From Nitrospirota bacterium (GTDB taxonomy: Bacteria > Nitrospirota > Thermodesulfovibrionia > Thermodesulfovibrionales > Dissulfurispiraceae), in assembly GCA_023476565.1 (NCBI GenBank), contig JAMCVZ010000070.1:1-53283 (forward strand): a stretch of 53,283 nt of DNA. Reading direction: 5' to 3'. This document shows, one piece after another, positions 1,877 through 52,802 of this stretch; the first letter of the stretch is position 1, and each line of letters begins with the position of its first letter. The position numbers and the translations under genes were made by a program. Below the pieces are notes generated by a model. The model was not told where the DNA came from, searched no databases, and saw only the letters and a list, made by a program, of their open reading frames with translations.

Positions 1877-3670
1877 ATGAAGGATGAAAAACGGCGATTT
1901 TTTCAGCTCTTTTTGCTATACTGTTATCTGTTTTTTGTCTTCCTGTCGGTATTTGTACCCATCTGCCTTGAGGGGGCTTTTTTGCATAAGAGAGTAAGTA
2001 TCGTAATCCGGATATTTTTTGTTATTCTCTTCGCCATTACTGCCTTTTACATTGCAGGGATGCCTCTTTATGCACAGCCGGAAGCCTCTCAGCCGGGCAA
2101 CGCTATCCCGCTGACACCGCAGCCTGCGCAACAGCCTGGAGTCCGGTCCCAGCCGCCGGTTGCACCCCGGACACCTTCTTCTCATGCTTCTCAGGCGACC
2201 GTCAGGAAAGGCGAGGTCAGCTTTAATTTCGATGATGCGGACATATATGATGTGATACAGACCGTCTTCGGTGAAATCCTCAGAGTGAACTACATGATCG
2301 ACCCGAGGGTGAAAGGTAGGGTCAATTTCAGAACGACGACACCTGTTCCGAAAGACGAGGTGCTCCCTGTAACGGAAGTAATATTGAAGCTCGATGGAGT
2401 CGGATTCGTCGAGGAAAACGGCATATACAAGATTCTGCCCTTGAGCGATATCCCCGGCACGACCCCGAACATCTTCGTCTATCCGCTCCAGAACAGCAAG
2501 GCTGCTCATATAGCCTCGCTGCTCCAGGCGATCCTCACGGGCAGTACCCATGTGCCTGCACAGCCAGCAGTACAAAGGACAACCGCTCCCGGGTCTGCCA
2601 CTACTGCACCTGCGCTGAGACCGGGAGTATCGGTCTATACTGCGGGAACGGGCTTTCTGGTCGCGCCTGAAACGAGGGTGCTTGCGGACGAGATAACCAA
2701 CTCGTTGATCGTGCTCGCAACACCTGCGGACTACAGTTTTATCGAGGAGACAGTGAAGAAGCTCGACACTATTCCCCGCCAGGTCATGATAGAAGTGCTC
2801 ATAGCCGAAGTCACGCTCCAGGACCAACTCCAGTTCGGGCTTGAGTGGCTTCTGTCTACCGATGCGAAGCTCCAGATGAACCCTTTCAGAAAGGATATTA
2901 ACCTCGGCGGCTTTGTCGGGCAAAATTCCGATCTGCTGCCGGATAAGGTAACCGGGATATCGGGCTTTTCATTCCTGGCTACCGATGCGGCAGGCAAGGT
3001 GAAAGCGCTGCTCCAGACCCTTGCATCGGAATCGAAGCTCAATGTGCTCGCCTCTCCTCACATCCTCGCAGCCGATAACCGCGAGGCGCGCATCCAGATA
3101 GGGGACCAGGTCCCGATAGCGACCTCGCAGGCAACTGCTGTAGGGACATCCAACAGCATTCTGACTACGATCCAGTACAAAGATACGGGCACTATCCTTA
3201 AAGTGAAACCGCAAATCAATGAAAGCGGGCTGGTTGCGCTTGAAGTAACGCAGGAGGTCTCCGATTTCTCTCCCCAGAAAGTGCTCGGGACTGACCAGTT
3301 CGTCATATCCAAACGCGAGGCCACAACCAATCTCGTTGCACAAGATGGGCAAACAATTGTTATCGGCGGGCTCATCAGGGACAGGGGTGACAGGACCCAA
3401 TCGGGCATCCCGCTGCTGAGCAAGGTCCCGATACTCGGCTATCTTTTCGGCACGACGAAAAATACGAATTCGAGAACCGAGCTTATCGTCCTGCTCACCC
3501 CCCATGTCGTCAGGAACCAGCAGGAGGCCGGGGACATGACATCCGATTATATCAAAAGGCTCAAGGGTGTGAATAAGGATATAAAGGTTGATGAATTCAT
3601 GAAGGGCGGGGAGAAAAGGGTTCGGGTTACCGGGGACCCGGAAAAGAAAGAAGCTCCGAAAGACAAATAA
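1877..3670 (+). CDS. gspD: secretin, GspD/PilQ family outer-membrane channel
   Basis: A 597-residue secretin. An N0/STN-like region (FNFDDADIYDVIQTVFGEI, near residue 115) is followed by one N1-type domain (about 195-290) interrupted by a Pro/Thr-rich linker, then the secretin beta-barrel domain (about 300-545). The barrel carries the hallmark QTIVIGGLIRD and the gate motif GIPLLSKVPILGYLFG. The ATG start gives two hydrophobic stretches. A TTG at about 1982, preceded by GAGGGGG, would give one ordinary signal peptide ending near LYAQ and may be the true start. No other gsp genes adjoin it; type IV pilus minor-pilin genes lie at 45-53 kb, so it might serve type II secretion or pili. The symbol is by domain resemblance. 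Confidence 0.85.
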   Translation: MKDEKRRFFQLFLLYCYLFFVFLSVFVPICLEGAFLHKRVSIVIRIFFVILFAITAFYIAGMPLYAQPEASQPGNAIPLTPQPAQQPGVRSQPPVAPRTPSSHASQATVRKGEVSFNFDDADIYDVIQTVFGEILRVNYMIDPRVKGRVNFRTTTPVPKDEVLPVTEVILKLDGVGFVEENGIYKILPLSDIPGTTPNIFVYPLQNSKAAHIASLLQAILTGSTHVPAQPAVQRTTAPGSATTAPALRPGVSVYTAGTGFLVAPETRVLADEITNSLIVLATPADYSFIEETVKKLDTIPRQVMIEVLIAEVTLQDQLQFGLEWLLSTDAKLQMNPFRKDINLGGFVGQNSDLLPDKVTGISGFSFLATDAAGKVKALLQTLASESKLNVLASPHILAADNREARIQIGDQVPIATSQATAVGTSNSILTTIQYKDTGTILKVKPQINESGLVALEVTQEVSDFSPQKVLGTDQFVISKREATTNLVAQDGQTIVIGGLIRDRGDRTQSGIPLLSKVPILGYLFGTTKNTNSRTELIVLLTPHVVRNQQEAGDMTSDYIKRLKGVNKDIKVDEFMKGGEKRVRVTGDPEKKEAPKDK

Positions 3671-8488: not shown

Positions 8489-10267
8489 TTATCCCCTGCT
8501 TACCGCCTTGAACTTACATACGTCAAAGCAACTGCCGCATTTTATGCATGCCCCGGCATTTATCACGTGAGGTTTCTTTTTCTCTCCCTTTATCGCACCG
8601 GCAGGACATGCCCTCATGCACGCGCCGCAGCCCTTGCAGAAATCCTCGAGGATGCTGTAAGTAAGAAGGTCCCTGCAGACCTTTGCCGGGCATTGCTTGT
8701 CTTTGATATGAGCTTCGTATTCTTCCCTGAAGTATTTGATGGTACTGAGGACCGGATTGGGGGCTGTCTGCCCTAGGCCGCAGAGGGAGGCGGATTTGAT
8801 ATCGCCGCTCAGTTTCAGCAGGAGATCTATATCGCTTTCTTTGCCGAGGCCCTTTGTAATTCTGTCCAGTATCTCAAGGAGCCTTTTGGTGCCGATCCTG
8901 CAGGGCACGCATTTGCCGCATGATTCAGACTGGGTGAAATTGAGGAAGTATTTGGCGACATTCACCATGCAGTCGTCTTCATCGAGGACGATCATGCCGC
9001 CTGAGCCTACGATTGAGCCGACTTTTGCAAGGGACTCGTAATCGACATTGATATCGAGCATGTCGCCCGTAATGCAGCCGCCCGAGGGGCCGCCGGTCTG
9101 TACCGCTTTCAGCTTCTTGTTGTTTTCTATACCGCCGCCGATATCGTAAATTATCTCTTTGAGCGTAATGCCCATCGGGACTTCGATGAGGCCGGTATTT
9201 TTAACTTTTCCGGTGAGCGCGAATACCTTCGTGCCTTTTGATTTTTCCGTACCGTAAGAGGAAAACCATTCAGGTCCGCGTTTGATGATATAGGGGATGT
9301 TTGCCAGGGTCTCGACATTGTTGATGACCGTGGGCTTTCCCCATAAGCCGTGGTGAACAGGGAAGGGCGGCTTCGCCCGCGGCATTCCCCTCTGTCCCTC
9401 GATGGAAGCTATAAGCGCGGTCTCTTCGCCGCATACAAAGGCGCCTGCGCCGAGTTTAATCTTGATATCGAAATCGAACCCTTTATTGAAAATATTTTTG
9501 CCGAGATACCCGCGCTCTCCAGCAGCCTTGATGGCCTTTTTAAGTCTCTCTACCGCGAGGGGATATTCGGCCCTGATATAGACATATCCTTTTGTCGCCC
9601 CGATCGCGTAAGCGCCGATCACCATGCCTTCCAGCACGGCGTGCGGGTTGCCTTCTATAACGGCCCTGTCCATGAACGCGCCGGGGTCGCCTTCATCGGC
9701 ATTGCAGATTATGTACTTCCGGTCTCCCGGGGCCTTGCGGCACGCTTCCCATTTTACGCCGGTGGGGAAGCCCGCGCCCCCTCGGCCCCTCAGCCCCGAC
9801 TTCTTTATCATGTCGATTACTGCTTCGGGGCTCATGGCATTAAATACTTTATCGATTGCCTTGTACCCCTCAGCGGCAATATAAGCCCCGATATCTTCGG
9901 GGTCTATGTTGCCGCAATCGGAGAGAACGACCTTGATCTGCTTTTCATGAAATTTATGGTAATCATCCGTTACCTGCCAGTCGGAAACCGGATTGCCGGC
10001 TACAACATGCTCGTCAATGATACGCTGTACCATATCGGGCTTTATGTACTGGTAGGTTGTCCTGTTGTCACCGGCGATTACGTCGACAAGGACGTCCCTT
10101 GCGCACAGGCCGCGGCATCCGACCTTATGCATCGAGCATTCCTTCTTGAACTCGGCAGGGATATTCTTTTCTTTCATCAGGGATTCAAAGGTTGCGAGCA
10201 CCTCGGCGCCCCCTGCAGCCATGCCCCCCGTACCCATGCATACCTGTATGGTTATGCGCTTATTCAT
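8489..10267 (-). CDS. NuoF-like NADH-binding subunit of formate dehydrogenase
   Basis: This 592-residue flavoprotein is a NuoF/HndC/HydB-type subunit that passes electrons between NAD(H) and the formate dehydrogenase. An N-terminal thioredoxin-like [2Fe-2S] domain (CMGTGG and GCRGLCARD, residues 1-90) is followed by the FMN/NADH domain (SGLRGRGGAGFPTG at about 160; ADEGDPGAFMDR), an SLBB-like segment, and the NuoF [4Fe-4S] motif ESCGKCVPCRIGTKR. The C-terminus adds two ferredoxin [4Fe-4S] clusters (CKGCGACMRACP, CIKCGSCFDVC). The added N- and C-terminal clusters are typical of soluble NAD-dependent or electron-bifurcating enzymes, not complex I. Bifurcation with ferredoxin is possible but not proven. 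It overlaps the NuoE-like gene by 8 bp. Confidence 0.92.
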   Translation of the reverse strand: MNKRITIQVCMGTGGMAAGGAEVLATFESLMKEKNIPAEFKKECSMHKVGCRGLCARDVLVDVIAGDNRTTYQYIKPDMVQRIIDEHVVAGNPVSDWQVTDDYHKFHEKQIKVVLSDCGNIDPEDIGAYIAAEGYKAIDKVFNAMSPEAVIDMIKKSGLRGRGGAGFPTGVKWEACRKAPGDRKYIICNADEGDPGAFMDRAVIEGNPHAVLEGMVIGAYAIGATKGYVYIRAEYPLAVERLKKAIKAAGERGYLGKNIFNKGFDFDIKIKLGAGAFVCGEETALIASIEGQRGMPRAKPPFPVHHGLWGKPTVINNVETLANIPYIIKRGPEWFSSYGTEKSKGTKVFALTGKVKNTGLIEVPMGITLKEIIYDIGGGIENNKKLKAVQTGGPSGGCITGDMLDINVDYESLAKVGSIVGSGGMIVLDEDDCMVNVAKYFLNFTQSESCGKCVPCRIGTKRLLEILDRITKGLGKESDIDLLLKLSGDIKSASLCGLGQTAPNPVLSTIKYFREEYEAHIKDKQCPAKVCRDLLTYSILEDFCKGCGACMRACPAGAIKGEKKKPHVINAGACIKCGSCFDVCKFKAVSRG

Positions 10268-30174: not shown

Positions 30175-33100
30175 ATGGGGGTGACGAGAAGGGATTTTTT
30201 GAGGTTTTCAGGGGGAGCTGTTGTTGCAGGGTCAATCGGAATGGGCACTGCGCCGGGCAAAGCGGATGCCGCGGAACTCAGGATAAAAAACGTTCAGGAA
30301 ACACGCACTATCTGTCCGTTTTGCTCTGTCGGCTGCGGCATTATTGTCCATACAAAGAACGGCAAGGTTATCAATACCGAAGGCGACCCGGATCACCCGA
30401 TTAACGAGGGCTCGCTCTGTTCCAAGGGCGCATCACTCTACCAGCTTGTCAACAATCCCCAACGGTTAACCAGGCCAAGGCACCGGGCGCCCGGGTCTGC
30501 AGAGTGGAAGGAAGTGGAATGGGACTGGACATTGAATGAAATTGCAAAGAGAATCAAACAAACCCGCGACAAGACCTTTAAAGCAACATCGAAATCCAGA
30601 GTAAAAGAGAAATCTCCCGACGGCAATGAGACAGAGGTAGAGAAAGATTTCGTCGTCAACCGGATAGACAGCATTGCCCATATCGGAAGCGCCCAGATCG
30701 ACAATGAGGAATGCTACATCCTGCAGAAATGGCTCCGCTCTCTGGGGCTTGTCTATATAGAGCACCAGGCCCGGATATGACACTCCGCAACAGTAGCGGC
30801 TCTGGCAGAGTCGTTCGGTCGCGGTGCAATGACGAACCACTGGATTGACGTTAAGAATGCGGACGTCATCCTCGTGATGGGAGCCAACCCTGCTGAAAAT
30901 CATCCTGTATCCATGAAATGGATCATGAGGGCGAAGGAAAAGGGTGCAAAGCTTGTCGTTGTTGATCCCCGTTTCACGAGAACTGCTGCAAAGGCGGATA
31001 TCTATGCCCCCATGCGCTCCGGCACTGATATTGCTTTTATGGGCGGCATGATCAAATATATCCTTGAGCATAACCTCTACTTTAAAGAGTACGTTGTCAA
31101 CTATACCAATGCCTCATTCCTCGTGAATCCCGGCTATAAAGGCCCCGGCGAACTGAAAGGCCTTTTCTCAGGGTATGATGAAAAGACGAGGAAGTATGAC
31201 AAAAAGACCTGGTCGTTCCAGATGGATGAGAAGGGCTTGCCGAAGAAAGACCCGGCGCTCAAGGATCAGAACTGTGTTTTTCAACTGCTCAAAAAGCACT
31301 ATTCACGTTACACGCTCGATAAGGTCTCAAGCATCACCGGAACCCCGAAGGAAAAGCTTGTCGAGGTATATAAGGCCTTCGCTTCGACAGGAAAGCCGGA
31401 CAGGGTCGGGACCGAACTGTATGCTATGGGCTGGACCCAGCATACGGTCGGCACGCAAAATATCAGGGCGATGGCGATCATCCAGCTCCTGCTCGGAAAT
31501 ATCGGAATGGCGGGCGGAGGGATAAATGCCCTGAGAGGCGCATGCAATGTCCAGGGTTCAACCGACCACGGTCTCCTCTTCCATATATTACCGGGATATA
31601 TTCCCGTGCCTACCGCCTCAATCACGGATCTCAAGACGTACATTGAAAAACTTACTCCGAAAACAAAAGACCCTAAGAGCGTAAACTGGTGGGGGAACAG
31701 GGGAAAATACATTACGAGTTACCTTAAGGCGATCTACGGGAATCATGCCACTAAGGACAATGATTTCGGCTATGCCTGGGTTCCGAAACCGGATGAGGGA
31801 ATAAACGCCTCATGGCTTATGCTTTTCGACCGGATGTTCAAGGGAAAGTTCGAAGGCTTTTTTGCATGGGGGATGAACCCCGCATGCTCCGGCGCCAACT
31901 CGAACAAAGTGAGGAAGGCGCTTGCAAAACTGAAATGGATGGTCGACGTGGATTTATTCGATAATGAGACGAGTTCCTTCTGGAAGGGGCCCGGCATGAA
32001 TCCGAAGGAGGTTCAGACAGAGGTATTTTCCCTTCCGGCATGTTCCATCGTGGAGAAAGAGGGAAGCATTACGAATTCGGGGCGGCTTGCCCAGTGGCAT
32101 GATAAGGCTATTGAGCCGGTAGGAGGATCGAAGCCGGACTCTGAAATAATAAACGAGCTCTATTTCCGGGTGAAAAGACTGTATCGGAAACAGGGCGGCA
32201 AGCTCCCTGATCCGGTAACAAAGCTCACCTGGGATTATGGAGAAAAAGGCCCTGACGGAAAGATCAAAAAGATGGACATCCACCGCGTGGCAAAAGAAAT
32301 TAACGGCTATTATCTTGAAGATCTCATCGACAAGAAGGCTGCTCCTCCGAAGCAACTGGGCAAGAAGGGAGAGCTTTGCGCCACGTTCGTTCATCTGCAG
32401 AACGACGGAACGACCTCAAGCGGCAACTGGATCTACTGCCAGAGCTACACCCGGAAAGAGGGCAAGGTCATCAACATGATGGCAAGGAGGAAAAAGACAG
32501 ACCCTACGGGATTGGGGCTCTATCCTGAGTGGGCGTGGTGCTGGCCGGTGAACCGTAAGATAATCTACAACCGTGCGTCCGTTGACCTTCAGGGCAGGCC
32601 CTGGGATCCGAAACGTGCGGTGATAAAGTGGAATCCTGCGAAAGAGGACCCGAACACGAAGAAGCCGGGGGTCTGGGAGGGAGATGTCCCCGACGGTCCT
32701 GCGCCTCCGATGTCCGATGAGAAAGCCGGCAAATATCCATTTATCATGAGGCCGGATGGCATGGGAGCATTGTTCGGCCCCGGACTTGCCGATGGCCCGT
32801 TCCCGGAGCATTATGAAGCGCTGGAATGTCCGCTTCAGGAGAACCTTATGTCAAAACAGAGGATAAACCCTGCGGTCAAGCTCTTCTATGATAAAGCGGG
32901 CGGAGTGCCGGAAGATATATTTTTTTCATACGACATACGCTACCCCTATGTGGCGACAACGTATCGCGTCTCAGAGCATTGGCAGACCGGTGTATTTACA
33001 AGGCATGAGCCGTGGCAGCTCGAGATGATGCCCCAGCAGTTCGTCGAATTAAGCGAGGAGCTGGCAAAGGAAAAGGGGATCAAAAACGGTGACAAGATCA

Positions 33101-33339
33101 ACGTTTCCTCGGGCCGCGGCAAAATATGGGCAATAGCTGTAGTGACAGAGAGATTCAAACCCTTCAAGGTCGCCGGAAACACCGTACACCAGGTCGGATT
33201 GCCATGGTGTTTCGGGTGGCAATACCCTGAAGACGGGAGTGGCGGGGACAGTTCCAATCTCCTGACGCCCACTATTGGCGATGCCAATACCATGATACCC
33301 GAAACAAAGGCCTTTATGGTCAATGTTGAGAAAGCTTAG
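30175..33339 (+). CDS. fdnG: membrane-bound formate dehydrogenase alpha subunit, selenocysteine
   Basis: Reading the TGA at 30778-30780 as Sec202 gives one 1054-residue protein (E. coli FdnG is 1015). A Tat signal (TRRDFLRFSGG) predicts export to the periplasm. The [4Fe-4S] motif CPFCSVGCG ending in GSLC (residues about 44-82) precedes the active site HQARI-U-HSATVAALAESFGRGAMTNHW, which matches FdnG with Cys replaced by Sec. MGANPAENHP and VDPRFTRTAAKAD follow, and a C-terminal dinucleotide-binding domain ends the protein. It oxidises formate and feeds the beta and gamma subunits encoded just downstream. Gene ATG is preceded by GGAGG. Confidence 0.95.
30778..30814 (+). promoter_or_regulatory. 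selenocysteine TGA and SECIS hairpin of fdnG
   Basis: TGA at 30778-30780. An 8-bp stem (GCGGCTCT at 30796-30803 with AGAGTCGT at 30807-30814, two G-U pairs) closes the 3-nt loop GGC, which begins 24 nt after the UGA. Distance, loop size and loop guanines fit a bacterial SECIS. Confidence 0.85.
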
Positions 33340-41078: not shown

Positions 41079-41101
41079 AGTGTGTAGAAGAGGAGGTTTC
41101 A

Positions 41102-41917
41102 ATGAAACGATTTGTAGCAGCAGCTCTATCACTTGCCGGCATCGCATTCTTCTTGCTTGTAAATGCGCCGGCAAGCTCAAAAAACGCCTATGCCTTCAGC
41201 GCCAACGGCTGTGAAGGAGATTGCAGGAAATGCCATACGCTGAGCAGCAAGGATGTGAGCGGGATGCTTAAAAAGATGAACCTTTCACATACAAAGGTCC
41301 TCAATATCCAGCTTAGCCCTGTCAAGAGTCTCTGGGAGATATCCGTTGACGACAACGGGAAAAAAGGGGTCTTCTATATGGATTTCTCCAAGAAGTATGT
41401 AATTCCCGGACCGATCATAGAAGTAGGCACCGGCTCCAATAAGACCGCAGAGAGCCTGGAGAGAATGCAGCCCAGAAAGAAGGCGGATGCCTCAAATATC
41501 CCCCTCTCCGGCGCATTGGTGGTCGGCAATAGGCATGCCCCGAAAAAAGTGATAGTCTTCACGGATCCCGATTGACCGTTCTGCGGAAAACTTCATCAGG
41601 AGATGAAGAAGGTCATTAAAGAGAGAAAAGACATAGTTTTTTTTATAAAGATGTTTCCTCTGAAAGGGCACCCTGATGCATACTGGAAATCAAAGAGCAT
41701 TGTATGCAACAAATCCCTGAAGATGCTCGAGGATAATTTCGAAAAGAAAGCGATCCCGAAAACGGAGTGTAACACGAAGGAAATAGATGATAATATAAAG
41801 CTCGCCGAATCCCTCGGCATAACCGGAACGCCCACGATGATACTCCCCGACGGGAGGGTGCAGGCCGGGGCTATGCCTGCAGACAAACTCATAGAGCTTA
41901 TCAACGGGAGGCGATGA
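41102..41917 (+). CDS. selenocysteine DsbC/G-like thiol-disulfide isomerase
   Basis: Reading the TGA at 41573-41575 as Sec158 gives a 271-residue protein. A signal peptide ends near AYA. The mature N-terminus has NGCEGDCRKCHTLS, which includes a CxxCH heme-type motif, and then a DsbC-like N-terminal domain (LNIQLSPVKSLWEISVDDNGKKG). The thioredoxin domain (about 140-271) reads VIVFTDPD-U-PFCGKLH, then GHPDAYWKSKSIVCNKS, and LGITGTPTMILPDGR with the cis-Pro. In DsbC/DsbG this site is FTDPxCPYC, so Sec replaces the nucleophilic Cys. Without readthrough the product would lose its active site. It is co-transcribed with a histidine kinase (ATGA overlap). Folding of disulfide-rich periplasmic proteins is the likely role. 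Confidence 0.85.
41573..41608 (+). promoter_or_regulatory. selenocysteine TGA and SECIS hairpin of the DsbC-like gene
   Basis: TGA at 41573-41575. A perfect 7-bp stem (CTTCATC at 41591-41597 with GATGAAG at 41602-41608) closes the loop AGGA; its first guanine is 24 nt after the UGA. Position, loop size and GG in the loop match bacterial SECIS elements, and the coding downstream stays in frame for 114 codons. Confidence 0.85.
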
Positions 41918-42762
41918 AAGCCGGTCCTGAAATCCTCATGATTCTTTTATCAGCCTCCCTGTTGCTGCTGCTGCTTTTGACCCTCGCGTTGTTTCTTCCC
42001 CGCTATCTGAAGAAGAAAGAGACGCCGGTGGAGCACATTGAAATGAACAGCGTGATGGGCGCGTTCAATGCGCTGGGGAGTGAAATAAAGTCCCTTAAAG
42101 AGCAGCTCATCATGAGAGAGAGGCTTGCCGCGCTCGGGGAAGTCTCCGCCGGAATAGCCCATGAACTCAGGAACCCGATGGGCGTTATAGCCGGATATGC
42201 GAAGCTCCTCCTGAAAAGCCTTGATGCTGCGGACAGCAGGAAAGAGATCGCCCAGGGGATTCTGACCGAGATCGAGGGCATGAACCGTGTCATGGAGGAA
42301 TTGCTGAAGTTCTCGAAGTCCGAACCCTTGACCAGGAGAGACATAGAACTGGTGAAATTCGTCGGGGATATTATCAAGGGCATGGACGAACCGGGGAGCA
42401 TAATAAATTTCCAATCTGTTAATCCCGTTTCAATAAAAGGAGATGAAACACTCCTCAGGCAGGCGGTCCGGAATCTCCTCCAGAACGCCGTTCACGCAGG
42501 CGATAAAATCAGAATCAGTATTGAAAAAACGGTCTTGTCCGATAAAGAATACATATGCATTGCGGTCAAGGACAACGGAAGCGGCATACCCGATGAGCAA
42601 TTGAGTAAAGTATTCCTGCCGTTTTACACGACGAAGAGCGGAGGCTCAGGGATCGGGCTGGCGCTTGCGCAGAAGATCGCCCTGGCGCACGGGGGAAGCG
42701 TGAGTGTAAACAGCAAGGAAGGGAAGGGCAGCACGTTCCGGTTATTTTTGCCGGCACAATAA
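41914..42762 (+). CDS. sensor histidine kinase, NtrB-like
   Basis: A 282-residue kinase with one N-terminal transmembrane helix (ILMILLSASLLLLLLLTLALFL, about 5-27) and no separate sensor domain. The phosphoacceptor His is in GIAHELRNPMGVIAGYAKLL (about residue 85), the N-box is LRQAVRNLLQNAVHA, the G1 box is KDNGSGIPDEQL, and the G2 box is GGSGIGLALAQKIALAHGG. The architecture (small stalk, NtrB/PilS-type kinase) pairs with an NtrC-family regulator 36 bp downstream. Its ATG overlaps the seleno-DsbC stop (ATGA), so input may be linked to periplasmic redox or protein folding; that is inference. Confidence 0.9.
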   Translation: MKAGPEILMILLSASLLLLLLLTLALFLPRYLKKKETPVEHIEMNSVMGAFNALGSEIKSLKEQLIMRERLAALGEVSAGIAHELRNPMGVIAGYAKLLLKSLDAADSRKEIAQGILTEIEGMNRVMEELLKFSKSEPLTRRDIELVKFVGDIIKGMDEPGSIINFQSVNPVSIKGDETLLRQAVRNLLQNAVHAGDKIRISIEKTVLSDKEYICIAVKDNGSGIPDEQLSKVFLPFYTTKSGGSGIGLALAQKIALAHGGSVSVNSKEGKGSTFRLFLPAQ

Positions 42763-42798: not shown

Positions 42799-44154
42799 AT
42801 GCAAACAATCCTTGTTGTTGAGGACAAAAAGAGCATGTCCGACATGCTCACCAGGACCTTGCAGTCCGAAGGGTACGCGGTCAGGGCCGCTTTCACCGTC
42901 AGGGACGGTATTGTTGCGCTTGCATCGGGCGAAACGGATGCCGTGATCACCGATCTGAGGTTGCCCGACGGTGACGGGATGGAGGTATTGAAGGCCGTGC
43001 AGGAGAGTTCCCTCCTTACTCCTGTGATTGTCATGACCGCTTTCGGGAGCATCGAAATTGCCGTCAGGGCGGTCAAGGAAGGCGCTTACGATTTCATCAC
43101 CAAGCCTTTCGATCCCGACCATCTCCTGCTGATAATCAAAAGGGCGCTGGAAGAAAGGTCCGTTCAGAAAGAAAATCTCATACTGAAAAAAGAATTCTCC
43201 AGGTTCCTGAAAAGGCCCGAGATAATCGGAACCAGCGGCCTGTGGCAGGAGGTGATGGAGAAGGTCAGGAGAGTGGCCCCGCTCAAAACAACGGTTCTCA
43301 TTCTCGGAGAAAGCGGCACCGGCAAGGAACTTATCGCGAGGGCGATTCATTACCTGAGCCCCCGGGGAAAAGAATCGTTTGTGGCTGTCAACTGCGCTGC
43401 TGTGCCGCCCGACCTCATAGAAAACGAGCTCTTCGGGCATGAGAAGGGCGCGTTCACCGGCGCCCTGGAAATCAAACCGGGCAGATTCGAGCTGGCCAAC
43501 AGGGGCACGATATTTCTTGATGAAATAGGCGATATGGCCATGCCGTTGCAATCAAAACTCCTGAGAGTGTTGCAGGAGAACGAGTTCGAAAGGGTCGGCG
43601 GGGCAAAAACAATCAAGGCTGACCTCAGGGTAATCGCGGCAAGCAACAAAGATCTCGAAAAAGAGGTTTCCGACGGCAACTTCAGAGACGACCTTTTTTA
43701 CAGGCTTAATGTTTTCCCGGTCATCATCCCTCCGTTAAGGAAAAGGAAAGAGGATGTCATACCCGTTGCAGAGTATTTCATTTCCCTCTTTTCGAAAGAG
43801 ATGAGCAAAAACGCCCCTTCACTGTCACCGGAGACCGGGGGAATGCTCCTTTGCAATGAGTGGAAAGGCAATGTAAGGGAGCTTAAAAACGTAGTCGAGC
43901 GGGCGGTCATTCTGTGTGACGGCCCGGTGCTTCTCCCCGAGCATTTTAACTTTACAAGGAATATATCGAAAGAGGAGGCTGCACCGGATGCATCCCTGCA
44001 CGAGGTTGCGCAAAAGGCTGTGAGATTTGCTGAAAAGGAGAGGATAGAAAACGCCTTAAAGCAGACCGTCGGCAACAAAAGCAGGGCTGCGGAACTGCTC
44101 AAAGTCAGTTATAAGACCCTCCTTACCAAAATAAAGGAATATGGTATTTATTAG
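42799..44154 (+). CDS. sigma-54-dependent response regulator, NtrC family
   Basis: A 451-residue activator with receiver (residues about 3-118; phospho-Asp in VITDLRLPDG), AAA+ domain (about 140-375) and a Fis-type HTH (about 410-451). The AAA+ part has Walker A GESGTGKELIARAIH, the sigma-54 contact loop GAFTGA, and Walker B TIFLDEIGDM. It is the cognate partner of the kinase just upstream. The only near-perfect sigma-54 promoter in the window is at 44829-44844 in front of pilY1, which makes the pilus operon its most likely target, similar to PilR in other bacteria. Confidence 0.93.
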   Translation: MQTILVVEDKKSMSDMLTRTLQSEGYAVRAAFTVRDGIVALASGETDAVITDLRLPDGDGMEVLKAVQESSLLTPVIVMTAFGSIEIAVRAVKEGAYDFITKPFDPDHLLLIIKRALEERSVQKENLILKKEFSRFLKRPEIIGTSGLWQEVMEKVRRVAPLKTTVLILGESGTGKELIARAIHYLSPRGKESFVAVNCAAVPPDLIENELFGHEKGAFTGALEIKPGRFELANRGTIFLDEIGDMAMPLQSKLLRVLQENEFERVGGAKTIKADLRVIAASNKDLEKEVSDGNFRDDLFYRLNVFPVIIPPLRKRKEDVIPVAEYFISLFSKEMSKNAPSLSPETGGMLLCNEWKGNVRELKNVVERAVILCDGPVLLPEHFNFTRNISKEEAAPDASLHEVAQKAVRFAEKERIENALKQTVGNKSRAAELLKVSYKTLLTKIKEYGIY

Positions 44155-44205: not shown

Positions 44206-44643
44206 ATGTCCGTTAAGGAACGGTGGAGTAAGACAAAGCCGATAAGCTACAGCACGGATGATGCGATAGCCTTACTGCTCCCCCTGTTAAAATCAGACGA
44301 GCGTATAGTAACCGCCTATCTTTTTGGTTCCAGAGTGTCAGAGGGGGAGAGCCTATCATCGGATATCGATATCGCTATATTCACATCGGACAATTTCTCA
44401 TGGGAGGATTATTACGCGCTCTATGGAGAACTCACCAAAAGGCTCCATTCGGACAGGCTGGACATAGTATGGCTTAATAAGGCGGAACCTATATTGAGTT
44501 TTGATGTCGTTAAAAACGGGGAATCGCTGTTTTTCACAGATGCAGGCGCGTTGAATGATTTTGAATTGAGGATTAAAAGGAAATATTACGATTATATCAT
44601 GTATCTGAACAAACACCGGAGGCACAGGGAAAGTGGTTTATAG
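44206..44643 (+). CDS. MNT-domain nucleotidyltransferase (MntA-like antitoxin)
   Basis: A 145-residue minimal nucleotidyltransferase: FGSRVSEGESLSSDIDIAIF (about residue 45-64) is the GSx10DxD active-site motif that MntA antitoxins use to AMPylate the HepT toxin. DIVWLNKAEPILSFDVVKNGESLF is a typical second strand and helix. GAGGAGG precedes the ATG. The following HepT-like gene overlaps by 11 bp but is cut short after 33 residues, so this antitoxin now appears orphaned. Confidence 0.88.
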   Translation: MSVKERWSKTKPISYSTDDAIALLLPLLKSDERIVTAYLFGSRVSEGESLSSDIDIAIFTSDNFSWEDYYALYGELTKRLHSDRLDIVWLNKAEPILSFDVVKNGESLFFTDAGALNDFELRIKRKYYDYIMYLNKHRRHRESGL

Positions 44644-44959: not shown

Positions 44960-47900
44960 ATGAAAAAGGCAGCGACACTTTTTTTAGCAATAACATTTTT
45001 TTTCGCAGCTTTTCACAAGGCTGATGCGGCTACGATGAACGACTATTGCAATCAGCCCCCCTTCTTGTCTACGCCTGTAAAGCCAAATGTCCTTATACTT
45101 ATGGATTTTTCCGGCAGCATGCAGTTCCCGGCATATTTGCCGTGCAGCTTTGGGGGATATAACGGCCATGTAGCCATGTGCGGAAGCGCAAGCTCCGGGG
45201 GCAACTATGATGCTACAAAGAGCTATTACGGATATTTCAAGACCGATAAATACTATAAATACCAGTCAAACACATTCCAGGAAAACAGCACCTGTACCGA
45301 CACCAACAAGATAGGCAGCTCTAATAATTGCATATCAGGCAATCTCCTTAACTGGATTACCGGCACAAGGGTAGATGTTGTAAGAAGAGTGTTGAACGGG
45401 GGGAGAAACAATGCAGGCAAACTGGAAAGCGAGGGGGCCACATATAACTATACTGATTCCAATCTGCACTGCAAATTTACAATTACGGCGACTGTTACTT
45501 CCAACAGAAAGCTTACGGTTGAAAACAGCGGCGGAACCTGTCCAATAGGCACCATGTCAAATTCCACTATCAATTTAAACGATACCAGTGCAACCGGAAT
45601 CGTACAGGATATGTATGACAAAATGACTTTCGAGTTCATGGTGTTTGCAAGTGACAGCAGGGAGGGCATCCTGAGGTCTGCAAAGGATGCAACACAAAGC
45701 TCTCTGCTGAGCGCCATAAGCAATGAGGAACCATATTACGGGACACCTACCGGCGAGGGATTATGGGAAGCATACGATTTTTTCAAACAGTCCAATGATC
45801 ATTTTTATGAGTCGAACACATCTGATATAAATGCCGCCAACGGGAACAAGGATCCCTGGTACGATGGGAGCGGTGCAAATTCCACTGCTATACCGTGCAG
45901 AAAATCATTTGTCCTGCTCCTTTCCGATGGCGCATGGAACGGAAGCGTCGACCCCGTAACCCCTGCGAGGAATATGCTTGTAAATGATCTGAGGAGCGAA
46001 GCCGCCCTTACCGGGAAGCAGAACGTTATAACCTACGCGGTCTATGCCTTCGGAGACCTGGATCCCGGTACAAAGGCCCAAGGAAGACAGGCCATGATAA
46101 CTACCGCCATATTCGGCGGCTTCGATGACAATGATTCAAATACATGGCCATACCCCTTTACCGGCTATCCCTCCAGCAGCCTGAGTGTGACCTATCCGAG
46201 GTCACAGTGCAACCCTTCCGGGACATGGGACAGCAAGTGTTCGGAATGGGATAAAAACAAGACAGGACTTCCTTATAATTTCTTTGAAGCGGATGATGGA
46301 GAGGCTTTAAAAACAGCCATTATAAGCGCATTTAACGATATGCTCCGGCGTGCGTCATCGGGAACGGCTGTTTCCGTGCTCTCATCGAGTGAGGGAAGCG
46401 GTGCAAATCTCATGCAGGCTGTTTTTTATCCAAAAAGGAAATTTGACAGCAATACCGAGATCGATTGGTCCAGCACGATGCAAAATCTCTGGTATTATCT
46501 CGACCCTTACCTCCAGAACACCTCAACAAGGGAAGACACCACTGTAGACAGTAAACTCAACCTGACAAACGATTATGTCATAAAGTTCTATTTCGATACG
46601 AATGACAGCAAGACAAAGGCGAAGAGATACAACGATTCGAACGGTGATGGAGTGGTAACCGACCCGACAGATCTCGTCGACACCATTGGTCTGGATAGCA
46701 TAAAAAATTTGTGGGAGGCGGGACAATTATTATGGTCCAGGCCAGGCGCGCGGACCCTTTATACTTACGATATCCCCGGCACTTCGGCCACAAACCTGAT
46801 GTCTTTCACTACCGCGAACGAGTCTACCCTGAGGAGCTATCTGCAGGCCGCGGATGTTACTGAAGGCACAAAGATCATAAACTACGTGCTTGGTACGGAC
46901 CAGTCCGGATACAGGAGCAGAACCGTAACAATAGGTAGTAGCTCATATGTCTGGAAGCTGGGGGATATTATCAACTCAACTCCGAGAATACAGGGATCTG
47001 CAAGATTAAACAGTTATAACCTCGATTCTCCTTTAGGTTATGGTGACACCACATATTCGACATTCGTCAACTCAAATGATTATAAAAACCGGGGGATGGT
47101 GTATGTAGGTGCGAATGACGGTATGCTCCATGCTTTTTATCTCGGAAAGCTTGAGGAAAAGTGGACCGGGCAGACTGCCTCTGAAAAAGCAAAACTATCG
47201 GATCCCGACAGCACGGGCCTGGGAAAAGAGTTATGGGCATATGTTCCTAAAAACGCGCTGCCTTATCTTAAATATATCGCTGACCCCAATTACTGCCATC
47301 TTTATTTTATCGACGGCCCCTCATACGTGTTTGATGCAAGTATTGCTGTGCCCTCGACGTATTCGGGGAATTACTGGGATGCTGCAAAAAGCACGACGGT
47401 AGATGGAAGCAATAATCTAACCCTGAATAGTACAAGCTGGAGAACGATTCTCATCGGCAGTATGGGCTTAGGAGGCGCGTGCAGGAAGACAGGTGACACA
47501 TGCACAAACTGTGTGAAGACCCCGACAACAGATCCCGCAGACAGTACCAAAGGGTTGGGTTATTCATCCTATTTTGCCCTTGATGTAACGAATCCTGCAT
47601 CTCCAACGCTCTTGTGGGAATTTTCGGACCCTGCACTCGGGTATGCCACTTCAGGGCCTGCTATTGTAAGAATAGGCAACAGGGACAAAAACGGCAGATG
47701 GTTTGCGGTTTTTGCATCAGGGCCGACAGGGCCTATAGACACAACTGCCCACCAGTTCATGGGCAAATCGGACCAGAATCTCAAGCTCTTTGTAGTCGAT
47801 TTAAAGACCGGGACATTGTTAAGGACAATTGATACAGGTATCACCAATGCTTTTGGCGGCTCTTTGCTTAATTCTCCGATTGATGCCGACAAATGGAACC

Positions 47901-48712
47901 CTTCGGCAGACGGTTTCTACAATGATGATGTCTTTTACCTGGGTTATGCAAAACTGAGCGGCACTACATGGACAGACGGTGGTGTATTGAGAGTAGTCAC
48001 CAAGGAGGGTGATCCTAATAATGGAGCGAGCAATTGGACTACAAGCACGGTGATAGACGGGATAGGTCCTGTCACCACATACATCGCCAAGCTCCAGGAC
48101 AGGACCAATCATAAATTATGGCTCCACTTCGGGACAGGAAGATATTTCTATAAGACATCAACCGAAATAGATGATGCGGACAGCCAGCGGAGACTCTTCG
48201 GAATAAAGGAACCTTGCTACAATAAAAACGGTGCCGGTGATAAATTCGACAGCACCTGTTCCAGTGCCGATTCCCTTTCATTCTCGCAGCTTACCGACAA
48301 GACAAGCTCCCCGTCATCTACTGAGCCTGATAAGGGATGGTATATCAGTCTCGATGCCTCAAGCGGCAGTTACAAGGCCGAAAGAGTTATTACCGATCCG
48401 CTCGCCTCATTCAGCGGCACGGTATATTTCACGACATACAGCCCGACTACCGACGTTTGCGGCTTTGGCGGCAACACATTTCTCTGGGCCGTGAAATATA
48501 CTTCAGGGGCCCAATCCGCAAACCAGCAGGGCAAAGCGATGCTTCAAGTATCCACAGGAAGCATTGAAGAAAAGAGCCTGTCCTCTTCATTTACCGATAA
48601 GGACAACAGGCGGACGAGCGCCATTACCGGCACCCCGCCGAAGGGACAGGGATTATCCATTGTAATAAGTCCGAAACCAATGAAAAAAATATTTCATATT
48701 AAAGAGAAATGA
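44960..48712 (+). CDS. pilY1: PilY1-like pilus tip adhesin/assembly protein
   Basis: A 1250-residue exported protein with signal peptide ending HKADA. A von Willebrand A-type domain begins at about residue 42 with the MIDAS sequence LILMDFSGSM and includes SFVLLLSDGAWNGS (about 320). The C-terminal half is the PilY1 beta-propeller, recognisable from GMVYVGANDGMLHAF (about 712), ELWAYVPKNALPYL and the late ALDVTNPASPTLLWEFSDPALG. A DSNGDGVVTD loop near 563 looks like a calcium site. It has many cysteines. PilY1 sits at the type IV pilus tip, promotes pilus extension and binds surfaces. It starts the operon with the minor pilins fimT, pilV, pilW and pilX, the standard gene set. Confidence 0.93.
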   Translation: MKKAATLFLAITFFFAAFHKADAATMNDYCNQPPFLSTPVKPNVLILMDFSGSMQFPAYLPCSFGGYNGHVAMCGSASSGGNYDATKSYYGYFKTDKYYKYQSNTFQENSTCTDTNKIGSSNNCISGNLLNWITGTRVDVVRRVLNGGRNNAGKLESEGATYNYTDSNLHCKFTITATVTSNRKLTVENSGGTCPIGTMSNSTINLNDTSATGIVQDMYDKMTFEFMVFASDSREGILRSAKDATQSSLLSAISNEEPYYGTPTGEGLWEAYDFFKQSNDHFYESNTSDINAANGNKDPWYDGSGANSTAIPCRKSFVLLLSDGAWNGSVDPVTPARNMLVNDLRSEAALTGKQNVITYAVYAFGDLDPGTKAQGRQAMITTAIFGGFDDNDSNTWPYPFTGYPSSSLSVTYPRSQCNPSGTWDSKCSEWDKNKTGLPYNFFEADDGEALKTAIISAFNDMLRRASSGTAVSVLSSSEGSGANLMQAVFYPKRKFDSNTEIDWSSTMQNLWYYLDPYLQNTSTREDTTVDSKLNLTNDYVIKFYFDTNDSKTKAKRYNDSNGDGVVTDPTDLVDTIGLDSIKNLWEAGQLLWSRPGARTLYTYDIPGTSATNLMSFTTANESTLRSYLQAADVTEGTKIINYVLGTDQSGYRSRTVTIGSSSYVWKLGDIINSTPRIQGSARLNSYNLDSPLGYGDTTYSTFVNSNDYKNRGMVYVGANDGMLHAFYLGKLEEKWTGQTASEKAKLSDPDSTGLGKELWAYVPKNALPYLKYIADPNYCHLYFIDGPSYVFDASIAVPSTYSGNYWDAAKSTTVDGSNNLTLNSTSWRTILIGSMGLGGACRKTGDTCTNCVKTPTTDPADSTKGLGYSSYFALDVTNPASPTLLWEFSDPALGYATSGPAIVRIGNRDKNGRWFAVFASGPTGPIDTTAHQFMGKSDQNLKLFVVDLKTGTLLRTIDTGITNAFGGSLLNSPIDADKWNPSADGFYNDDVFYLGYAKLSGTTWTDGGVLRVVTKEGDPNNGASNWTTSTVIDGIGPVTTYIAKLQDRTNHKLWLHFGTGRYFYKTSTEIDDADSQRRLFGIKEPCYNKNGAGDKFDSTCSSADSLSFSQLTDKTSSPSSTEPDKGWYISLDASSGSYKAERVITDPLASFSGTVYFTTYSPTTDVCGFGGNTFLWAVKYTSGAQSANQQGKAMLQVSTGSIEEKSLSSSFTDKDNRRTSAITGTPPKGQGLSIVISPKPMKKIFHIKEK

Positions 48713-49188
48713 GACAGAACGGATTTACATTGGTTGAAGTGCTTATCGTTATAGCCATTGCCGGTATACTGATGGGTATAGCATCGATGAACTTCGGCAG
48801 ATGGTCAACAAAATCAAACATCGAGGGCCAGACGAGGGAGATGTATTCAGATATGATGAACGCAAGGATGTTGGCGATGAACAGGAACCGGGTTCATTTT
48901 GTGCGCATGAATACTACTCAGTACACGATAAGGGACGATTCGAATGAAAACGGCACATATGAGACCACCGATACGCTTGTACTTCAGAAGGACATGAGAA
49001 ACCAGATTCAATGGAACGGCAATCCGCCCACGAATATCGATGTGCGTTTTGATTCAAAAGGGATAGCGCTTGATCAGGGGATCATTTCAGTCACGAACAC
49101 CGTTGGCGCGTCCTATGATTGCATTGAGGTCTCGCAGGCAAGATTAGACATGGGTCAGATGAACGGGGGGGCCTGTGTTAAAAAATAG
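48709..49188 (+). CDS. fimT: minor pilin FimT/GspH
   Basis: A 159-residue pseudopilin. The class III leader is MRQNG, cleaved before FTLVEVLIVIAIAGILMGIAS, with Glu at +5. The GspH/FimT body follows (STKSNIEGQTREMYSDMMNARMLAMNRN). Two cysteines near the C-terminus (SYDCIEV and GGACVKK) are placed like the disulfide of minor pilins. Its ATG overlaps the pilY1 stop. A paralog lies at 52335-52802 with the same pattern. Confidence 0.92.
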   Translation: MRQNGFTLVEVLIVIAIAGILMGIASMNFGRWSTKSNIEGQTREMYSDMMNARMLAMNRNRVHFVRMNTTQYTIRDDSNENGTYETTDTLVLQKDMRNQIQWNGNPPTNIDVRFDSKGIALDQGIISVTNTVGASYDCIEVSQARLDMGQMNGGACVKK

Positions 49189-49582
49189 CAGGGCCTTCAC
49201 ACTTATTGAGGTAATGATCGCCATGTTCATATTGATGGTAGGCATGCTGGCCCTGCTCAACACTGCCGCGGTAATGACAGAGAATAATCTTATCAACATA
49301 ATACGCGACGAAGCGGTAAGGATCGGTGAACAGCAGATGGAAGATTTAAGGAATACAAGTCTGTCTCCGACAGCTTGGACGTGCACACCGACGACGAAGA
49401 TATTCAGGGGCATTACCACTGATTTTAACGTATGCACAAGGATTACAAATCTTTCCTCGGATGGAAATACCAAGCAAGTGGATGTAGCCGTAGGATGGAA
49501 TTACAAAGGGACAGGTACCATATCACCAACCACAAGAAAGTATCAGCACAGCCTTAGCACGGTTGTTCGTGTTGGAAGCTGA
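49175..49582 (+). CDS. pilV: minor pilin PilV-like
   Basis: A 135-residue protein with GTG start overlapping fimT by 14 bp. The prepilin region is SRA before FTLIEVMIAMFILMVGMLALLNT; the residue before the cleavage site is Ala instead of the usual Gly, which prepilin peptidases tolerate less well. The Glu at +5 and the EVMIAMFIL pattern match PilV. The rest is short with two cysteines. Confidence 0.88.
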   Translation: MLKNSRAFTLIEVMIAMFILMVGMLALLNTAAVMTENNLINIIRDEAVRIGEQQMEDLRNTSLSPTAWTCTPTTKIFRGITTDFNVCTRITNLSSDGNTKQVDVAVGWNYKGTGTISPTTRKYQHSLSTVVRVGS

Positions 49583-49613
49583 GGGTCAAAACAATGCGGG
49601 GATTAGATTAAAC

Positions 49614-50759
49614 ATGATTAAAAAGCAAGCCGGCTTCAGCATAATAGAGCTGTTGATTGTTATGGCCTTGTTCGTTGTTGTGCTTGCAATAACCACCACA
49701 ACATCGACCACTATTCTAAGGCAGTCCACCCAGCAGGCAAAGGTGGCTGAAACACAGATGGAAAGTATTGTAGGACTTGAGATGCTGAGGCTGGACATAG
49801 GGCAAGCCGGGTACGGACTGCCGTGGTCCTATTCAGGCGCCCTGACCGGTTATACCGAGGCATCCTCATCTCCTTCAAGTAGTTATAATGATACTTCCAC
49901 CACCCCTCCAAGGGCGATTGTCGGAGGGAATGACCTGACGACTTTTGTGATAAACAACTCCGACTACCTGGTAATCAAATCGACTATATCAGGTATGAAT
50001 GATGCTGCAAAAAAGTGGAGTTATATAGTCACCGGAACTACCACCCAGACATGGGGGACAGATGATTTATCAAGTTCTGATCGTATTATAGCTGTCAGGC
50101 CGACAGTCGGAGATACTACGATCAGGCAACTGGTTCTGGACAGTAGCTCTAATTTCTCCACAACCTATTCAACTCTTTCGAATCTGCCTGTCCAGGCTTC
50201 GGATCTTATATATGGTGTTGACTCCAACAGCACGCTCTCTGTTCCTTTTAACAGGGCGGATTATTACGTCAAAAGACCTTCCACCGGCATGCCTTCGCAG
50301 TGCAATCCCAGTACGGGAATACTTTATAAGGCCACGCTCAACCAGAACGGCATAAACGGCGGAGGACTCTCCGAACTTCCTCTTCTCGATTGCGTTGCAG
50401 ATATGCAGGTGGTATTCACTCTGGACATGAATGACGATGGAGTTGCCGGGACATTCTCAAATCCCGACGGCTCAACCGTGACCGGCAGCGAAGGAGCTTC
50501 TGTAGCATCTGTTCAGAGCACTTTGGGCGCTGCGGATATGTTGAGGAAACGACTCAAAGAGGTGAGGGTCTATATACTTGTCCATGAGGGACAACAGGAT
50601 ATTAACTACACATACCCCAATATAACGGTGACACTGGGCGACAGCACGTGGCCTGAAGGGGTAAAAAAGACATTTATATTAGCGACCATGGGAGGAAATT
50701 GGCAGAACTACCGGTGGAAGGTGCATACCCTGGTTGTAAAGCCTAAGAACCTGTATTGA
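49614..50759 (+). CDS. pilW: minor pilin PilW-like
   Basis: The ATG at 49614 gives MIKKQAG followed by FSIIELLIVMALFVVVLAI, a proper class III leader with Glu at +5; the frame upstream overlaps pilV and is not needed. The 381-residue length and the GLEMLRLDIGQAGYGLPWSY segment after the helix are typical of PilW. Its C-terminal part contains a DMNDDGVAG loop that resembles a calcium-binding turn. It lies between pilV and pilX in the operon. Confidence 0.9.
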   Translation: MIKKQAGFSIIELLIVMALFVVVLAITTTTSTTILRQSTQQAKVAETQMESIVGLEMLRLDIGQAGYGLPWSYSGALTGYTEASSSPSSSYNDTSTTPPRAIVGGNDLTTFVINNSDYLVIKSTISGMNDAAKKWSYIVTGTTTQTWGTDDLSSSDRIIAVRPTVGDTTIRQLVLDSSSNFSTTYSTLSNLPVQASDLIYGVDSNSTLSVPFNRADYYVKRPSTGMPSQCNPSTGILYKATLNQNGINGGGLSELPLLDCVADMQVVFTLDMNDDGVAGTFSNPDGSTVTGSEGASVASVQSTLGAADMLRKRLKEVRVYILVHEGQQDINYTYPNITVTLGDSTWPEGVKKTFILATMGGNWQNYRWKVHTLVVKPKNLY

Positions 50760-50777
50760 ATTTGATAATGGTGAGAT

Positions 50778-51398
50778 ATGAAATACTGTAAAAATCAAAA
50801 AGGCATAGCACTGGTAACGGCATTGCTTATCACCCTTATTTCACTTGCAATTATAATGGCTGTAATTTATTTTGTCACTCAGGGGACAAAGATATCCTCC
50901 CTTGAGAAGAGATACCAGACGGCCCTGGATGCATCTTACGGTGGCGTAGAGATCATTACAAAGGACATTATTCCTCAAACAATCGGCGGAACAGCACTTT
51001 CATCGCTCGTTTCCTCTTTTCCTGCAACTTACCAGGGCATGATCTCCCGTCAGGTAACAGATGCATGTTTTACCGATAAGATGACAAAATCGACCTCGAA
51101 TTGGGCAACCGGTTGCAGTACAACTATAACGGATGTTAAAGCCACATATGATTTTAAAGTGACCCTGAGCGGTATTGCGCCGCAGCCGAATTTCACCGTC
51201 TATGCCAAAGTAGTCGATACGGTAAAGGGCAATACCGATACAAGCGGTCTGGTACTTGAGGGCACCGGAGTGGCTGAATCAGGCTCCGGTATTGTAACTC
51301 CCCAGCATTTCCCTTACACCTACAGGGTAGAGATACAGGGCGAAAGACAGACGAATCCGGATGAGCGGGCCAATCTTTCGGCCCTTTACGCATATTAA
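50778..51398 (+). CDS. pilX: minor pilin PilX-like
   Basis: A 206-residue protein beginning MKYCKNQKG before IALVTALLITLISLAIIMAVIYFVTQ. The hydrophobic helix lacks the +5 Glu of other pilins, which is normal for PilX. The EKRYQTALDASYGGVEI segment matches PilX N-terminal domains. Two cysteines (DACFTD and TGCSTT) may form a disulfide. It follows pilW by 18 bp. Confidence 0.88.
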   Translation: MKYCKNQKGIALVTALLITLISLAIIMAVIYFVTQGTKISSLEKRYQTALDASYGGVEIITKDIIPQTIGGTALSSLVSSFPATYQGMISRQVTDACFTDKMTKSTSNWATGCSTTITDVKATYDFKVTLSGIAPQPNFTVYAKVVDTVKGNTDTSGLVLEGTGVAESGSGIVTPQHFPYTYRVEIQGERQTNPDERANLSALYAY

Positions 51399-51403
51399 GG
51401 GAT

Positions 51404-52168
51404 ATGACTGTCAATATAAGAACTTGTTTCCCGGCCTTTTTTATCCTTGTGTCTTTTCTGTTTCTCCCTGCATGCGAATCCAAGAAACAGCCCCGGGGAG
51501 AAGCGCAGGGCGTTGCTGCCGAGCCTTCCGATAATGCATCCACAAGTGCCGCGCAAGAGGAACCGGCTCCGGGATATTTCCCGTCAAGCAACACTACCCA
51601 GGATATCACGAAAAAAACGCTGAACACACCGAAGGGAGTGAGCAAGGTAAAGCTGGTCCTCAAGAGCAAGGATAATGTCGATACCGTAACAGTTGTTGCG
51701 TCGGGAGGTGAGGGGGCCGACTTCAAATATGAATGGACAAAAAACAGCGAGCCTGCCGGCAACGGCGACAGCCTGAGCGGATTCAAACGGGGGGACAAGA
51801 TAGCGGTCAAGATAACCCCCTTTGACGGCAAGAATTACGGCCAACCGAAGACCCTGACTACCGAGATAAAAAATTCTACCCCCAAAGTTGTCGAGGGCAA
51901 ACAAATAGATTTTGACGGTAAGATATTAACCGCTCAGGTCAAAGCAATCGACCCCGACGGTGATGCGCTTTCTTATTCTCTTATGGATGCGCCGCCGCAG
52001 GGCATGGCCATTGACCAGGCAAGCGGTATTATCAAATGGGAGGTTCCCAAGGAGTTCCATGGCAAGCAGAAGATCAAGGTGAAAATTTCCGACGGCCACG
52101 GAGCGGAAGTCTTATACGAGTTGAACGCGGATATCAGCGCAGTCAAATCCCCGGAAAAGCAAAAATAA
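51404..52168 (+). CDS. lipoprotein with cadherin/Ig-like domains
   Basis: A 254-residue lipoprotein: signal peptide and lipobox LFLPAC at about residue 24, then a disordered linker rich in Ala, Ser and Pro, then two Ig-like beta domains. The second has AIDPDGDALSYSLMDAPPQGMAID and GIIKWEVPKEFHGKQ, the pattern of cadherin-like/He_PIG domains with calcium-binding DPDGD. It follows pilX by 5 bp and so belongs to the pilus operon. It could help anchor or guide the pilus at the outer membrane; that role is inferred from position. Confidence 0.75.
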   Translation: MTVNIRTCFPAFFILVSFLFLPACESKKQPRGEAQGVAAEPSDNASTSAAQEEPAPGYFPSSNTTQDITKKTLNTPKGVSKVKLVLKSKDNVDTVTVVASGGEGADFKYEWTKNSEPAGNGDSLSGFKRGDKIAVKITPFDGKNYGQPKTLTTEIKNSTPKVVEGKQIDFDGKILTAQVKAIDPDGDALSYSLMDAPPQGMAIDQASGIIKWEVPKEFHGKQKIKVKISDGHGAEVLYELNADISAVKSPEKQK

Positions 52169-52186
52169 CCACAAGATACACCCCCA

Positions 52187-52235
52187 GGGGACAGTCCCTA
52201 TTTACGGACGGAGTCGTAGAATAGGGACTGTCCCC
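52187..52235. repeat. GGGACAGTCCC repeat, short copy
   Basis: The left arm GGGGACAGTCCCTATT (52187-52202) and right arm AATAGGGACTGTCCCC (52220-52235) are perfect inverted copies around the centre TACGGACGGAGTCGTAG. The same arms and GGAGTCGTAG occur at 29921-30001. It lies between the lipoprotein and second fimT genes; the hairpin could end transcription of the pilus operon. Confidence 0.7.
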
Positions 52236-52334
52236 GGAGCAACTCAATTCCAAAGTTGACGGAATAGTAAGTACCCGCCTGAAAGTAATATGTAACTAAA
52301 AGCCCGCTGTATCCGGAATATATCAGGGGGGAAA

Positions 52335-52802
52335 ATGAAACAAAACGGTTACACATTACTTGAACTGATTGTTATTATTGCTGTTATATGCATCCTGATC
52401 TCAATTGCCGCCTTCAATTATACTGACTGGACGATAAAATTCGGCATAGAAAGCCAGATAAAAGAGATGTACAGTGATCTGATGGCTGCAAGAATGCGGG
52501 CGATGACCAGAAACAGGGCACATTTCGTAAGTATCGCCGCCTCATACTACACCATCAAGGACGATACCGACGGAAACGGGGAAAACGACCCCGGAGATGC
52601 ATTGCTGCATCATAAGAGCCTGGGGAATATGATCACCTGGAACGGCAACCCGGAAATAAGCTTCAATTCCAGGGGCATTTCGTCCGCCAGCGAAACGATA
52701 TCCGTTTCAAATGCCGTGAAAGCCGCATATGACTGCATCGTCATATCGAAAACGAGGATAAATATCGGGAAAATGAGCAGGGGCAGGTGTGTGCATAAAT
52801 GA
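52335..52802 (+). CDS. second FimT/GspH-type minor pilin
   Basis: A 155-residue pseudopilin with leader MKQNG before YTLLELIVIIAVICILISIAAFN; Tyr at +1 and Glu at +5. It is a clear paralog of the fimT at 48709: both share EMYSD-M-AR, WNGNP, F-S-GIS and the C-terminal YDCI and G-CV-K cysteine pair. GGGGG precedes the ATG. It is outside the compact operon, after the palindromic repeat, and may have its own promoter in 52236-52334, which I could not define. Confidence 0.9.
   Translation: MKQNGYTLLELIVIIAVICILISIAAFNYTDWTIKFGIESQIKEMYSDLMAARMRAMTRNRAHFVSIAASYYTIKDDTDGNGENDPGDALLHHKSLGNMITWNGNPEISFNSRGISSASETISVSNAVKAAYDCIVISKTRINIGKMSRGRCVHK

Follow-up and report, generated by a model that had tools for sequence, protein, structure and literature searches.

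Comparison with described selenoproteins and with DsbC

Thiol oxidoreductases that carry selenocysteine (Sec) have been described under two names which are close to the protein studied here. A report of 2005 (PMC1088965) described "DsbG-like" Sec proteins, and a "thiol:disulfide interchange protein" with a UxxC active site was catalogued in 2006, its selenoprotein forms including those of Geobacter and Syntrophus (Zhang et al. 2006, PMC1794560); in the excerpts of PMC9312934 and PMC13188914, this second family corresponds to PF13098 with UxxC.

Our gene lies in a window of 53,283 nucleotides, by which we mean the whole stretch of DNA analysed (Nitrospirota bacterium, assembly GCA_023476565.1, contig JAMCVZ010000070.1). 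Its parts are the following:

41091..41096, +, Shine-Dalgarno-like AGGAGG 5' of the ATG, read directly in the sequence
41102..41917, +, DsbC-type gene with Sec codon, encoding 271 residues and ending in TGA
41102..41197, +, probable signal peptide MKRFVAAALSLAGIAFFLLVNAPASSKNAYAF, with a predicted N-terminal helix at residues 2-21 (sequence and model)
41210..41236, +, CEGDCRKCH, i.e. an extra Cys37 and CxxCH (CRKCH, residues 41-45, candidate heme-c site)
41270..41446, +, DsbC_N dimerisation domain PF10411, residues 57-115 (Pfam E 2.3e-7)
41540..41899, +, Thioredoxin_2 domain PF13098, residues 147-266 (Pfam E 2.6e-18)
41573..41575, +, TGA as Sec codon, residue 158 of the UxxC active site UPFC (homolog comparison)
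41591..41608, +, SECIS-type hairpin CTTCATC-AGGA-GATGAAG (homolog comparison and genome pattern search)
41705..41707, +, Cys202, invariant, counterpart of the first structural Cys of DsbC
41768..41770, +, Cys223, invariant, counterpart of the second structural Cys of DsbC
41828..41836, +, Thr-Pro-Thr 243-245, cis-Pro motif

With the published "thiol:disulfide interchange protein" selenoproteins the family shares PF13098 and UxxC, and a Syntrophaceae homolog (L083) is a Sec form, just as the published group includes Syntrophus. By the published description of the group (reference sequence WP_011366075.1), the family fits the 2006 label. DsbC_N, CxxCH and a pilus context are not mentioned for the published group in the excerpted text of PMC1794560, PMC9312934 and PMC13188914. 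The likeness to the "DsbG-like" selenoprotein (PMC1088965, NF041057), as far as the excerpt describes it, consists in a UxxC thiol oxidoreductase of the DsbG COG; NF041057 is absent among the NCBIfam matches of our protein and of 47 homologs. Sec enzymes of such a type have been described before, and the present branch adds CxxCH, repeated Sec/Cys switching and pilus neighbours.

Two domains, the CxxC position, the second Cys pair, cis-Pro and the fold are shared with DsbC and DsbG (1eej, 1v57; PF10411), while the replacement of the first Cys by Sec and a CxxCH preceding the N-terminal domain set our protein apart from them. The family profile matches DsbC structures across both domains, and the best fold match of the AlphaFold monomer model (pLDDT 90.6, 47 sequences) is E. 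coli DsbC (1eej). Superposition of the full-length model gives a high rmsd (about 11 Å) because the domains are placed differently; the thioredoxin domain alone superposes on 3gv1 at 2.7 Å. C161, T243-P244, C202 and C223 are invariant in the homologs, and position 158 is either U or C. Against the NCBIfam DsbC equivalog NF008129 the protein scores 70.9 bits, below the curated cut-off of 215, and by this score it is a relative and not an equivalog.

We estimate at roughly 0.85 the probability that the gene encodes a secreted DsbC-family isomerase/reductase with a Sec nucleophile and a SECIS-type hairpin, its action being most likely DsbC-like. Secretion is suggested by the signal-like N-terminus. 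As in DsbC, a dimer held via the N-terminal domain would attack the wrong disulfides of exported proteins (the model at hand being that of a monomer), and the selenenylsulfide formed in UxxC would be re-reduced by a CcdA-type membrane protein; a protein of this type is encoded in the same genome.

Selenocysteine codon and its hairpin

The in-frame TGA (41573-41575) is flanked by FTDPD and PFCG and occupies the place of the first Cys of CPFC; 113 sense codons of open frame follow it up to the TGA stop (41915-41917). This terminal TGA shares ATGA with the start of the next gene, so the same gene holds one TGA which is a stop and another which is read. Judging from the sequences compared, the internal TGA is a selenocysteine codon; the initial annotation had read it so, with Sec as the nucleophile of a DsbC-type thioredoxin domain, and both homolog comparison and the hairpin support this.

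The comparison comprised 97 distinct homologs obtained by a genome scan and by searching 200 genomes of the class with an HMM, which found the family in 132 of them. Their active-site codon is TGA in 57 genes (Sec) and TGC or TGT in 40 (Cys; 23 and 17, respectively). A genome of the same genus (G001) contains, alongside a Sec paralog, a Cys ortholog that shares 70% identity over residues 18-271; since this ortholog runs through the site without a stop, the in-frame TGA of our gene is not due to chance. A Sec paralog also exists in the genome under study (G000:C46:21323-22024, L025), with TGA at the same place and CSKGH in place of CxxCH. The initial annotation had noted neither this paralog nor the type IV pilus genes nearby, which are considered below.

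Two other readings of the TGA were rejected. A genome-wide code with TGA for Trp is ruled out, since TGA also terminates this gene and the internal TGA is aligned with Cys, not Trp; a frameshift or a pair of genes is ruled out, as the homologs align straight across the site.

The hairpin is composed of CTTCATC (41591-41597), the AGGA loop (41598-41601) and GATGAAG (41602-41608). The perfect 7-bp stem and the loop had been recognised correctly from the sequence alone, whereas the distance of 24 nt from the UGA has to be amended: the stem starts 15 nt and the loop 22 nt after it. As in other bacterial SECIS hairpins, the element follows closely on the UGA and bears G in a small apical loop. In the homologs, all seven stem pairs (CTTCATC-NGGA-GATGAAG) are formed in 57/57 TGA genes versus 2/40 Cys genes (Fisher 6e-25, with the genes treated as unrelated though they are kin), and among the HMM-sampled genes alone in 20/20 versus 2/27. 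The alternation of TGA and TGC together with the hairpin, which had been proposed as a check, is thereby found, the hairpin being tied to the TGA form. A compensatory double change keeps the pair in the Sec gene L158 (CAT to CAC with ATG to GTG). The genome under study contains the hairpin pattern at exactly two sites, one in each TGA paralog; as a control, the reversed pattern gave no occurrence in 60 genomes.

Because the stem pairs third with first codon positions (except those fixed by Met), a perfect hairpin requires particular synonymous codons. The same synonymous choices are made at the four stem-determining codons in 51 Sec genes; from codon usage, their likelihood is about 5% per gene. 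The peptide LHQEMK overlying the hairpin is present in 51/57 Sec versus 8/40 Cys genes; as one of the peptide patterns behind the first scan overlies the hairpin, the HMM-sampled subset (14/20 versus 4/27) is the fair set for this count. As long as Sec is kept, the hairpin codons and the peptide are fixed, and once the Cys form is adopted, both drift; the RNA thus appears to constrain the overlying protein sequence.

Switching between Sec and Cys

Parsimony on a tree of 94 homologs requires 16 changes between Sec and Cys, of which at least seven are forced by well-supported branches. The direction is suggested by relic hairpins, which are perfect in two Cys genes (L153 and L118) and partly decayed in the G001 Cys ortholog; these would mark losses of Sec in favour of Cys. 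The presence of two perfect hairpins among the eight LHQEMK-bearing Cys genes has P of about 0.05, which by itself is weak evidence for such a loss. According to the excerpt of a 2026 review (PMC13188914), Sec-to-Cys loss is rare and documented mainly for FdhA and SelD.

At two loci (L185 and L047) the forms occur as tandem pairs, in which a Sec copy without CxxCH immediately precedes a Cys copy with it.

Gene context and pilus linkage

The Sec gene heads a cluster of PilY1 and minor pilin genes, and the surroundings in the window are arranged as follows:

1877-3670, PilQ/GspD-type secretin at the start of the window, separated by about 37 kb from the PilY1/minor-pilin cluster, +
41914..42762, histidine kinase gene with a 4-base overlap (ATGA) with the Sec gene, +
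42799..44154, sigma-54 response regulator, +
44206-44643, small nucleotidyltransferase-domain gene between the response regulator and PilY1, +
44960..48712, PilY1-type protein with 17 Cys, +
48709..52802, minor pilin/pilus genes (GspH, N_methyl, PilW, PilX-like, Ig-domain protein, GspH), +

Pilus genes adjoin 13 of the 28 genes of one branch of the family (clade A) versus 2 of the 66 others, and these two are tandem partners of clade-A genes. The count is a rough one, as the flanks vary in length by locus and the genes share common descent; for pilins, a strict prepilin pattern which missed the window's own pilins was replaced by another. Within clade A the linkage takes varied arrangements and occurs both in Nitrospirota and in Syntrophaceae; it is absent, in the flanks examined, from about half of this clade and from most of the family.

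Gene order would point to the products of the downstream genes, Cys-rich PilY1 and minor pilins, as the preferred clients of the enzyme in clade A. We put this forward tentatively, the odds being slightly below even.

The CxxCH motif

The initial annotation held the combination of CxxCH with Sec to be unusual. On the contrary, it is common: CxxCH is present in 80 of the 97 homologs, i.e. in 47/57 Sec and 33/40 Cys forms. The other 17 have no CxxCH at all, save for the CSKGH of the own paralog. Loss of CxxCH nearly always affects the whole unit, which would be the behaviour of a heme-c motif, and, as in c-type cytochromes, CxxCH lies in a protein which is probably exported, judging from its signal-like N-terminus. 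ResB of System II is encoded twice in the genome under study, and a heme link of CxxCH is plausible. We give an even chance to the suggestion that CxxCH at the start of the mature protein carries covalent heme. As about one sixth of the homologs, including the own Sec paralog, are devoid of CxxCH, heme cannot be essential to the family.

A serious competitor, though one we would not bet on, is that CxxCH (or CxxxCxxCH) represents a second thiol pair or a metal site instead of a heme site. The additional Cys four residues ahead of CxxCH in clade A speaks for this, as does CSKGH at this place in the own paralog; against it, CxxC without His is found at this position in none of the 97 homologs.

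Another explanation concerns the client: the enzyme could serve mainly apocytochrome c, reducing its CxxCH for heme attachment in the manner of CcsX/ResA, and not the repair of pilus proteins. The genome does encode System II ResB together with a CcdA-type protein, and the CxxCH of the enzyme could itself be matured. However, the protein has the full DsbC architecture with the dimerisation domain and is not of the TlpA/ResA type, and the recurrent neighbour genes include none for heme maturation, making this explanation unlikely.

Sec machinery of the genome

The initial annotation inferred UGA decoding from two other Sec genes in the window, and these proved to be formate dehydrogenase genes with in-frame TGA:

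30175-33339, +, formate dehydrogenase gene, TGA at 30778
TGA at 7328, -, formate dehydrogenase gene

The hairpins of these two genes are not of the same sequence as the one in the DsbC-type gene. In this genome at least five genes are of the Sec type (two fdhA, selD and two dsbC-like), and the frame is open after each TGA.

A search for selA, selB, selC and selD had also been proposed, and its outcome is divided. selA and selD are whole, the latter with an in-frame TGA of its own; selB is there as well, but a run of ten C (G000:C47, L024, about 10034-10050, -) divides it into two frames that overlap, while it is uninterrupted in six relatives; selC was not found in the draft, where the RF01852 search returned only tRNA-Ser(TGA) and other tRNAs, and BLAST with the tRNA-Sec of G001 gave no match. 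Nearly all of 40 relatives have a tRNA-Sec scoring above 50 bits, and ARAGORN reads the examples checked (G001 and two others) as tRNA-Sec. The assembly is a draft of 73 contigs with 96% completeness, and in several relatives the distance from selC to the end of its contig is no more than about 1 kb. Such ends are the places where assemblies break, and errors are common in long C runs. The missing tRNA-Sec has its likeliest explanation in the incompleteness of the draft. Nesting of selC in selB, an idea for Nitrospirae taken from the excerpt of PMC13188914, was not seen at the selB 3' end, and selC has no conserved neighbours, so an assembly gap could not be located through them. The missing selC and the broken selB would also be expected if the strain had recently lost Sec decoding, the TGA being a real stop and the gene a young pseudogene, but this is very improbable given the weaknesses of the draft at contig ends and C runs, the intact selA and selD, the open frames of the five Sec genes and the perfect hairpins of both dsbC-like genes.

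Implications

Standard annotation will end proteins of this kind at the TGA, and half of the enzyme will be missed. One can also imagine, although we consider it a long shot, that a covalent heme at CxxCH exchanges electrons with UxxC or with respiratory cytochromes; if true, a heme-bearing Sec isomerase would couple anaerobic respiration with the repair of disulfides in pilus proteins. The family itself offers a clean natural experiment on the use of selenium, in which the Sec and Cys forms of one enzyme alternate many times.
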